Assembly (NCBI GenBank): GCA_902615325.1
Contig: CACMOJ010000001.1
Span: 124,001-188,000, forward strand
Reading direction: 5' to 3'
DNA length: 64,000 nt
Origin: an uncultured SAR116 cluster alpha proteobacterium
GTDB taxonomy: Bacteria; Pseudomonadota; Alphaproteobacteria; Puniceispirillales; Marisalimonadaceae
Of this stretch, positions 34,325 to 41,008 are shown piece after piece (positions within the stretch are counted from its first letter, which is position 1; each line of letters opens with the position of its first letter). The position numbers and the translations under genes were made by a program. Below the pieces are notes generated by a model. That model did no database searches, had not been told where the DNA came from, and saw only the letters and a program-made list of their open reading frames with translations.

Positions 34325-34747
34325 TTAGATAACTTTCAATGGTATCTTTTTAGGTTTTCTTTCTTCTGGAATCTCTCTTTTAAGGACAATGTTTAAAAGT
34401 CCATTAGATAGATTAGCTTCCTTAACATCAACATATTGCTCTAATCTAAACTTTTGTTCAAATGATCTTTTAGCAATACCATTGTATAGATATTGTATAT
34501 TTTTGTCTTGAACATCACTCATGATTTGACCTTTAACAGTCAAAACACCATCATGTATATCAATATTGATATCTTTTTTATTAAAACCAGATACTGCTAA
34601 AGTTATTTCATATTCGTCATCAGAATGTCTAATAATATCATAAGCAGGGAAAGAATTATGTTTCTGATTATTAAAGTTCTCTAATTCGTTGAAGAGGTTA
34701 TCAAATCCTACAAAAGAACGTAGAGCTAGTGTTGGTAATATTGTCAT
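34325..34747 (-). CDS. ibpA: small heat shock protein (Hsp20/IbpA)
   Basis: This ATP-independent holdase has 140 residues from the ATG at 34747 (the frame stays open upstream, but an AAAGGAG site fixes this start and MTILPTLALRSFVGFD is a typical IbpA beginning). The alpha-crystallin domain spans about 33-125, with YEITLAVSGFNKKDINIDI and GVLTVKG, YNGIAKRSFEQKFRL and the conserved NGLLNIVLKREIPEE block. The C-terminal KIPLKVI holds the IxI/V tail motif for oligomer assembly. It binds unfolding proteins during heat stress. A sigma32-like promoter and a ROSE-like leader precede it. Confidence 0.95.
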   Translation of the reverse strand: MTILPTLALRSFVGFDNLFNELENFNNQKHNSFPAYDIIRHSDDEYEITLAVSGFNKKDINIDIHDGVLTVKGQIMSDVQDKNIQYLYNGIAKRSFEQKFRLEQYVDVKEANLSNGLLNIVLKREIPEERKPKKIPLKVI

Positions 34748-34831
34748 AATATACTCCTTTAAAAGCAAGTTTACGAAAATCCCATAATGGCGATTTTCTG
34801 ATTTAATAGACATCCATTAAATGCAATGTCT
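34748..34831 (-). promoter_or_regulatory. ROSE-like RNA thermometer in the hsp20 5' leader
   Basis: The approximately 84-base leader folds on paper into three successive hairpins: 34808-34831 (AGACAT with ATGTCT), 34775-34798 (GAAAATC with GATTTTC plus inner CC/GG) and 34753-34770. The last, ACUUGCUUUUAAAGGAGU, pairs the ribosome site GGAG imperfectly with a UUGCU segment, the hallmark of ROSE elements in alphaproteobacterial small heat shock mRNAs. The imperfect G-opposite-G pairing would open with heat. Confidence 0.6.
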
Positions 34832-34838
34832 AAATTAG

Positions 34839-34866
34839 ATATGGTTAATTAATTTGAAATTTCAAT
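34839..34866 (-). promoter_or_regulatory. sigma32 (RpoH)-type heat shock promoter
   Basis: On the minus strand ATTGAAA (34866-34860) and ACCATAT (34845-34839) are separated by 14 bases, each one mismatch from the sigma32 consensus CTTGAAA and CCCATnT. The predicted transcription start near 34831 is exactly the 5' base of the first leader hairpin, which supports both calls. Confidence 0.6.
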
Positions 34867-34887: not shown

Positions 34888-35976
34888 ATGTTTATTTCAG
34901 AAGTCAAAATTGACACTTATAATATCCCTTTACCTGAACCAGTGGAAGCATATGCAGCGGGAGTTATGAAATCTTTTGACTTAGTTATATGTAGAGTAAC
35001 AAATGATAATGGTATTGAAGGAGTTGGTTATATTACAGTTCACGAAAATCAAGGAAAAGCCATTGCTCAAATAATAAAGGATAGTTTTATAGATTTGCTT
35101 AAAAATAAGGATCCAAGATATATTGAGTATTTATGGAACCTTATGTGGAAAAAGGTTCACTACGCGGGAAGAGGTGGTCCTGTCAGCTTTGCAATAGCAG
35201 CTGTAGATGTAGCATTGTGGGATCTAAAAGGTAAATATCTAAATGAACCATTGTGGAGTTTATTAGGTGGATTTCAAAAAAATGTATTATGTTACGCAGG
35301 TAATATAGATTTAAATTTTTCAAAAGACAAATTATTAGCAGAAGCTACAAAATCTCTTGATCAGGGGTTTAGAGCAATTAAAATGAGACTTGGTAGAGAA
35401 ACATTAAAAGAAGATTTGGAAAGACTAGACGCAATGAGAAGTCACTTATCAAGTGATATATCATTAATGGCTGATGCCAATGAAGCATGGACTGTTAATC
35501 AAGCCATGAAAGCATTCAACGAAATTGGAAAGTTTAATTTAGTTTGGCTAGAGGAACCAATCCAACCTGACGATTTTGAAGGTTATAAATATCTAAGGTC
35601 ACTGGGAAAAGTTCCAATTGCAGCAGGGGAAAATTTACACACACTAGCCGAAATGAATTTATTAATAAAAAATAATGGTGTTGATTATGTTGAGCCAGAC
35701 CTAACTACTTGTGGTGGTATTACAACTTATATGAAAGTTGCTAAACTTGCTGAAATAAATAACTTACCTGTGGTTTCACATGGTGTCCATGAACTTCATG
35801 TTCATTTACTAGCAGCTTGTCCAAATGCATCATATATGGAATTTCACGCTTGGAAAATTGATGATTATATAGAAGAAAAACTTTCAATAAATAATGGATA
35901 CTCTCCTGCCCCAGACAAACCTGGTCATGGGGTTGTGTTTGATTTTGAAAAACTCTCAAAACTTAAGATCGATTAA
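34888..35976 (+). CDS. mandelate racemase / muconate lactonizing enzyme family protein
   Basis: This enolase-superfamily enzyme has 362 residues from the ATG at 34888 (a TTG five codons upstream is less likely). Metal ligands are Asp196 (LMADANEAW), Glu222 (LEEPIQP) and Glu248 (AAGENLH). The catalytic groups are Lys165-x-Arg167 (AIKMRLG) and a His298/Asp271 dyad (VVSHGVHELH), matching the mandelate-racemase subgroup. It probably removes a proton alpha to a carboxylate, acting as an acid-sugar dehydratase or racemase. No good ribosome site is visible, so a leaderless mRNA is possible. The thioesterase gene follows closely. Confidence 0.9.
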   Translation: MFISEVKIDTYNIPLPEPVEAYAAGVMKSFDLVICRVTNDNGIEGVGYITVHENQGKAIAQIIKDSFIDLLKNKDPRYIEYLWNLMWKKVHYAGRGGPVSFAIAAVDVALWDLKGKYLNEPLWSLLGGFQKNVLCYAGNIDLNFSKDKLLAEATKSLDQGFRAIKMRLGRETLKEDLERLDAMRSHLSSDISLMADANEAWTVNQAMKAFNEIGKFNLVWLEEPIQPDDFEGYKYLRSLGKVPIAAGENLHTLAEMNLLIKNNGVDYVEPDLTTCGGITTYMKVAKLAEINNLPVVSHGVHELHVHLLAACPNASYMEFHAWKIDDYIEEKLSINNGYSPAPDKPGHGVVFDFEKLSKLKID

Positions 35977-40255: not shown

Positions 40256-41008
40256 ATGGATAAAGTAGCAATAATAACAGGTGCTGCAAGAGGCATTGGT
40301 CTCGCTACAGCTAAAATATTCTTACAACAAAATTATAAAGTTGTAATAGTTGATAGAGACAAAAATGAAGTTAATAAACTTAAATTAAAAAATGACAAAT
40401 TATTAAAATATATTTGTGATATATCAGATCCCAAAAAAAACAAAAGTATGATTGAGGATATTTATAAATGGGGGAAACGAATAGATATTTTAGTAAATAA
40501 TGCCGGTGTAGCTGATTTTGGAAAAATTGAAACTGTAAAATTTAAAAATTGGCGTAAAATCATGGATACAAATTTAGATGGTACCTTTTTAACTACACAA
40601 AATGTAATTAAATATTTAAAAAAAACTAAAGGAAATATTATTAATATCGCATCAATATCTGGATTAAGAGCATCAACTTTAAGGATTGCATATGGGACTT
40701 CAAAAGCAGCAATTATACAATTAACTCAACAACAAGCTATAGAATTAGGCGAATTTGGGATCAGAGTAAATTGTGTCTCACCAGGGCCTGTAAAGACTAA
40801 ATTAGCTCAAGCAGTGCACACTCCTGACATTGTGAAAGCTTACCATGATTCAATACCACTTAACAGATATGGTATGGAAAATGAAATTGCTGAAGCAATT
40901 TTTTTCTTATCTTCTGAAAAAGCAAGTTATATAACTGGACAAAATTTGTCAGTTGATGGTGGTTTTGAAGCATCCGGTGTCGGACTCATTTCATTAAGAG
41001 AAAGTTAA
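40256..41008 (+). CDS. short-chain dehydrogenase/reductase (classical)
   Basis: This 250-residue classical SDR has the glycine-rich site ITGAARGIGLATA near residue 7 and the NNAGVAD block near 81. The catalytic Ser (in NIASISG) and Tyr-x-x-x-Lys (in AYGTSKAA) are intact near 130 and 145. FGIRVNCVSPGPVKTKL near 172 and the C-terminal ITGQNLSVDGGF follow. It reduces a ketone or oxidises an alcohol with NAD(P). It follows the atypical SDR after 6 bases and ends the operon. The substrate is unknown. Confidence 0.92.
   Translation: MDKVAIITGAARGIGLATAKIFLQQNYKVVIVDRDKNEVNKLKLKNDKLLKYICDISDPKKNKSMIEDIYKWGKRIDILVNNAGVADFGKIETVKFKNWRKIMDTNLDGTFLTTQNVIKYLKKTKGNIINIASISGLRASTLRIAYGTSKAAIIQLTQQQAIELGEFGIRVNCVSPGPVKTKLAQAVHTPDIVKAYHDSIPLNRYGMENEIAEAIFFLSSEKASYITGQNLSVDGGFEASGVGLISLRES

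Follow-up and report, generated by a model that had tools for sequence, protein, structure and literature searches.

A probable ROSE-type RNA thermometer and a sigma32-like promoter upstream of hsp20 in a SAR116 alphaproteobacterium

Does the leader of a small heat shock gene (hsp20) in an uncultured SAR116 alphaproteobacterium act as an RNA thermometer, and is that gene also transcribed by the heat-shock sigma factor? SAR116 is an abundant bacterial group of the surface ocean. The locus lies in a stretch of 64,000 nucleotides (contig CACMOJ010000001.1, positions 124,001 to 188,000; hereafter the window), for which a preliminary description had read the DNA 5' of hsp20 as a sigma32-type promoter joined to a ROSE-type thermometer in a small, AT-rich genome. 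The genome is indeed small and AT-rich, being a draft of 1.78 Mb (~82% complete) in which the hsp20 leader has a G+C content of 29%. The combined reading of promoter and thermometer was supported as well: the defining ROSE features were present and conserved, and a thermal function can be proposed by analogy. With a probability of about 0.86, the SAR116 hsp20 leader belongs to the ROSE-type RNA thermometers as a divergent, AT-rich example that is transcribed by RpoH and whose third hairpin would melt on warming. The coordinates of all features are collected in Table 1.

Table 1. The hsp20 gene, its leader and its promoter, in window coordinates
Feature	Position	Strand	Details
-35 element ATTGAAA of the sigma32-like promoter	34860..34866	minus	CTTGAA/ATTGAA at equivalent place in nearly all relatives
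-10 element ACCATAT	34839..34845	minus	14 nt from -35
5' leader, ROSE-type, three hairpins	34748..34832	minus	85 bases; E of held-out covariance model 2.8e-11 (window) and 7.8e-10 (genome)
Hairpin 1, UAGACAUU[G]CAU-UUA-AUG GAUGUCUA	34807..34832	minus	bulged G 34824; compensatory changes in 7/7 modelled pairs
Hairpin 2, GAAAAUC[G]CCA-UUA-UGG GAUUUUC	34775..34798	minus	bulged G 34791; compensatory changes in 8/9 modelled pairs
Hairpin 3 (putative sensor), CUU[G]CUU-UUA-AAGGAG	34754..34769	minus	bulged G 34766; covers Shine-Dalgarno; hardly varies among 34 leaders (paired cells 99.5%)
Shine-Dalgarno AGGAG	34754..34758	minus	invariant in family f1
hsp20 (small heat shock protein, 140 aa)	34328..34747	minus	ATG at 34747; Pfam HSP20 61.5 bits

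The best NCBIfam model for the hsp20 product was IbpA, with a score under the cut-off of that model. An ortholog was found in most relatives, and loci whose protein was 95-98% identical to that of the window came mostly from 'SAR116 cluster' alphaproteobacteria. Divergent from hsp20, a gene for a mandelate racemase/muconate lactonizing-type enzyme occupies 34888-35976 on the plus strand, with only ~22 bp separating its likely ATG and the -35 box of hsp20.

A leader of ~84 bases with three hairpins, the last of which sets UUGCU against GGAG, had been proposed for this gene, and every element was found at its place. UUGCU (34768-34764) stands opposite the Shine-Dalgarno (SD) sequence, leaders of family f1 carry UYGCU, and each of the three hairpins of the hsp20 leader contains one bulged G. 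In f1, the bulged G between the pyrimidine and the C of UYGCU was invariant, within a conserved register of hairpin 3 (C-G, U-A, Y-G, [G], C-G, U-A, U-A), and it was retained even where adjacent pairs switched. We built a covariance model (R1) from 24 hsp20 ortholog leaders belonging to other genera of the family; the genus of the window was excluded because a MAFFT alignment that included it misaligned hairpin 1, and the search of the window is therefore also a held-out test. R1 scored the window leader at 65.2 bits in a search of the window, where a second, weak match (40905-40996, E 0.034) fell inside a reading frame by eye, and in the whole 1.78-Mb genome the hsp20 leader was the sole match at E ≤ 0.1. 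Matches to R1 were present in 44 of the 101 genomes of the relatives set, nearly all of them ending directly before an hsp20 start. RNAalifold, run on the MAFFT alignment of the 24 leaders, returned the same three bulged hairpins unprompted. In this unfitted alignment 99.0% of cells were paired, against 94.5% in shuffles and 36-49% in sliding controls, and nine pairs had changes on both sides, against 2.7 in shuffles. The latter count is the cleaner one because the larger alignment, of 34 leaders, had been fitted to the structure model. There, compensatory changes occurred in 18 of 22 pairs and amounted to 128 cells (30.4 ± 5.4 in shuffles; 11-36 in sliding controls), with hairpin 3 adding little covariation because it is nearly unvarying. 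The structure of the hsp20 leader is far beyond chance.

Promoters of sigma32 (RpoH) have the consensus CTTGAAA-N13/14-CCCCATNT. The -35 and -10 elements upstream of hsp20, and the 14-base spacing between them, were all located where the preliminary description had put them, and from the position of this promoter transcription is expected to start at about 34832. The promoter agreed with the consensus at 11 of 14 positions, and the window contained 23 equal-scoring sites where 28.6 were expected by chance; taken alone, the sigma32-like match is weak, non-significant evidence. It gains weight because its position is conserved in relatives, the CTTGAA/ATTGAA box recurring across the order at a fixed distance 5' of hairpin 1. 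Order-level loci had a mean promoter score of 11.0/14 (8.8 in shuffles) and two of them reached 14/14; the -10 boxes of the order-level relatives L037 and L048 are CCCCATCT and CCCCATAT, with CCCCATNT reached exactly. The source genome encodes rpoH (TIGR02392, 357 bits, over the cut-off), and CTTGTAT-N13-ACCCATAT and CTTGAAA-N13-AACTATTT are found in the leaders of its dnaK and groES, respectively. Given the conserved promoter position, the presence of rpoH and the similar -35/-10 pairs before dnaK and groES, hsp20 is likely under dual control, by transcription and by RNA melting. The coincidence of transcription start and first hairpin had been called unlikely by chance; this is supported through the conserved promoter position in relatives, and does not follow from the promoter score alone.

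Alternatively, a housekeeping sigma factor might transcribe hsp20, in which case the sigma32-like promoter would be a chance match and the RNA alone would exert control. Both the commonness of equal-scoring sites in the window and the -10 boxes of some family members, which read CATTAAAT or TATTATAT and differ widely from CCCCATNT, agree with such an arrangement, but the fixed placement of the -35 box in most relatives, the order-level scores above those of shuffles and the presence of RpoH make it unlikely. An inverted repeat, TTGAAA...TTTCAA, is found at 34854-34865 of the window and in relatives L098-L120 (e.g., TTGAAAAAAAGATTTTCAA), overlapping the -35 element and the spacer in much of the family; it is possibly an operator, or a chance occurrence in AT-rich DNA.

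Searches with the Rfam ROSE families (RF00435 and RF02523), named as a check in the preliminary description, gave no match at the window leader at gathering or permissive thresholds, and RF00435 gave none in the 101 relatives. This silence carries little weight because, across 289 genomes of the class, RF00435 produced signal in 44 alphaproteobacterial genomes and just one of these 44 cleared its cut-off. Of the 20 Rfam-detected loci that we read, 18 showed the plan of hairpin 1, hairpin 2 and a UYGCU hairpin in front of an hsp20-like gene, with L084 and L090 lacking a clear hsp20. The SAR116-trained covariance models, when applied to Rfam-type ROSE loci, gave marginal scores (best L074, E 0.08; L085, E 0.58). 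Since direct profile similarity is marginal, the link to the ROSE family rests on shared anatomy and on the equivalent position before hsp20. ROSE-like elements are characterized by U(U/C)GCU, imperfect SD pairing, a bulged G, two to four hairpins and an association mostly with small heat-shock genes (PMC3669281, PMC11342760, PMC4166951), and every one of the published structural features is found in the window leader. The pattern of a FourU element, at least four consecutive U's pairing with the SD, was absent from it: the anti-SD CUUGCUU has an interrupting G and is conserved as UYGCU. The UUUU run at 34764-34761 of the window is UUU in most relatives.

Among described thermometers, RF00435, which is found at alphaproteobacterial small heat shock genes such as that of Bradyrhizobium ROSE1, likewise puts three hairpins before a member of the hsp20 gene family; its first (YGCC/GGR) and third hairpins each have a bulged G, and UYGCU faces AGGAG. 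In contrast, the SAR116 leader is AT-rich, its sensor stem has ~6 pairs instead of ~10, its middle hairpin also has a bulged G, and it is missed by the Rfam model. The short ROSE-like elements of Pseudomonas ibpA share the short U(U/C)GCU sensor hairpin, a stable upstream hairpin and the same heat-shock gene family, but have two hairpins where SAR116 has three (PMC3669281). ROSE_3 (RF02523) gave weak, sub-threshold matches at the leaders of three order relatives (L050 with 28.6 bits, L044 and L041), whereas the window leader had no match. ROSE-G resembles the SAR116 leader in placing a bulged G within a short SD hairpin, but is distinguished by CUGCU, two opposed bulged G's and ABC transporter genes, while in SAR116 the SD side is bulge-free and the gene is hsp20 (PMC12857270). 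As far as the papers searched and Rfam show, a ROSE-type leader has not been recorded before for SAR116, and none of those papers mentioned both SAR116 and RNA thermometers. Our reading would extend a classic RNA thermometer to SAR116 and to several further small, AT-rich alphaproteobacterial genomes, through a new covariance model that works where that of Rfam does not, and such leaders could in part reveal how uncultured marine bacteria respond to warming.

Warming melts the SD hairpin of known ROSE elements but leaves the upstream hairpin closed (PMC3669281), and an oppF thermometer responds less to heat once its bulged G has been deleted (PMC11342760). By analogy, we postulate that RpoH (sigma32) initiates transcription of hsp20 at about 34832, which would place hairpin 1 at or beside the 5' end of the mRNA, and that hairpins 1 and 2 serve as stable scaffolds. 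In hairpin 3, the anti-SD CUUGCUU would pair with AAGGAG across the bulged G and keep the ribosome site closed at growth temperature; warming would open this hairpin first, allowing translation to start. The predicted openness of GGAG in the window leader rose from 0.09 at 10°C to 0.17 at 40°C and 0.49 at 60°C, and the medians for Rfam-type ROSE leaders were 0.25, 0.28 and 0.35 at the same temperatures. Folding at several temperatures, another check that had been suggested for this leader, hence yielded a shallow predicted opening, and it is not diagnostic because Rfam-type ROSE leaders are predicted to open just as little. The energy model favored a shifted register of hairpin 3 that has no bulge (UGCUUU/GGAGUA; -2.7 versus -0.2 kcal/mol at 30°C) and in which G34766 is paired and A34758 is not, but the pattern of conservation agrees with the bulged register; GGAG is hidden in either register. 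In SD sequestration by folding, the hsp20 leader came 4th of 18 window genes (low, not extreme).

A different role for the leader would be to bind a protein or sRNA, or to set mRNA stability, with temperature not being a signal and hairpin 3 only tuning a weak ribosome site. The strong conservation of hairpins 1 and 2, when ROSE elements of Pseudomonas can do with just the SD hairpin (PMC3669281), would suit this role, as would the shallow predicted opening of GGAG. However, the thermosensor motif known from the literature is just this near-invariant anti-SD/SD hairpin with UYGCU and the bulged G, heat-shock genes follow it, and the equally shallow predictions for Rfam-type ROSE leaders deprive the folding result of force, so that we regard a leader of this kind as quite improbable. 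It is hardly credible that the leader is translated, with hsp20 beginning in frame at ATG 34813 and with hairpins that merely coincide with coding. A frame of 162 aa does stay open from 34813 across hairpins 2 and 3, but we rejected this reading because locus L094, which belongs to the same genus and encodes a 98% identical protein, has a stop in this frame about one codon before the ATG, and because upstream start codons are missing from most members of the family. Indels between leaders are not multiples of three, and base pairs are preserved by changes.

The ROSE-type reading of the leader also bears on how ROSE elements are built elsewhere. We enumerated hairpins with one 5'-side bulge in the family, in the order and in Rfam-type ROSE leaders, and the bulged base was G in 59/59, 42/48 and 43/45 of them, respectively, against 19-30% in shuffles, mostly followed by C. 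Because the bulged base is nearly always G, the bulged-G module recurs in hairpins 1 and 2, beyond the SD hairpin. Of the bulged G's at 34824 and 34791 of the window, the one in the middle hairpin is absent from the printed Rfam ROSE consensus, which shows bulged G's in the first and third hairpins only. In three loci of the same order (L050, L051 and L053), the middle hairpin has a full CUUGCU...GGAG core like that of the sensor hairpin; it may be a decoy ribosome site or a duplicate of the sensor.

A second covariance model (R2), trained on hsp20 leaders, matched 10 places outside the order that were unused in training (E ≤ 0.05): eight before hsp20-like genes, one before rpoH (L131) and one before dnaK (L154). 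The rpoH match (L131:1501-1582, genome G303; E 0.005 per genome) lies directly before the gene, and in a second genus of the same alphaproteobacterial family (L155, genome G194) the best match is again directly before rpoH (E 0.003 per genome). Both have a UUGCU hairpin near the SD, and L155 also has an upstream bulged-G hairpin. The match before dnaK (G235:C1:983545-983650, E 0.048) likewise adjoins its gene directly, with CTTGAAA upstream. Judging from these sequences, ROSE control may extend to the heat-shock sigma factor itself in the family of L131 and L155. A literature search by title and abstract found no paper on an alphaproteobacterial rpoH ROSE element, which is weak evidence of novelty; the bulged G in every alphaproteobacterial ROSE hairpin and the ROSE-like leaders before rpoH and dnaK seem newer than the hsp20 finding. 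We tentatively raise the possibility, which we hold to be doubtful, that an alphaproteobacterial ROSE element is built as an array in which one bulged-G hairpin module (Y-G-C opposite G-R) is present two or three times, as opposed to one sensor with an inert scaffold, and that such elements also control rpoH and dnaK in some other Alphaproteobacteria. Such an array may act as a unit, because the middle hairpin carries its own CUUGCU...GGAG in some SAR116 relatives. If true, bulged G's in every hairpin and leaders before rpoH and dnaK would alter the way ROSE is depicted and the places in which to look for it.

The source genome has a second hsp20 paralog (L002, G000:C2:64556-64957) without a ROSE leader, which suggests that its two small heat shock proteins are under different control. 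Neither R1 nor R2 matched at the hsp20 paralog loci L002, L061, L062, L066, L068, L070 and L072. The hsp20 starts of L069 (G055, contig C3), L152 and L153 are near-identical (MTSKDLSIFNSLRPFS), and all three have ROSE leaders. G055 is a SAR116 draft genome with 5% contamination and the genomes of L152 and L153 belong to another family (f102), so that this likeness reflects either contamination or transfer.
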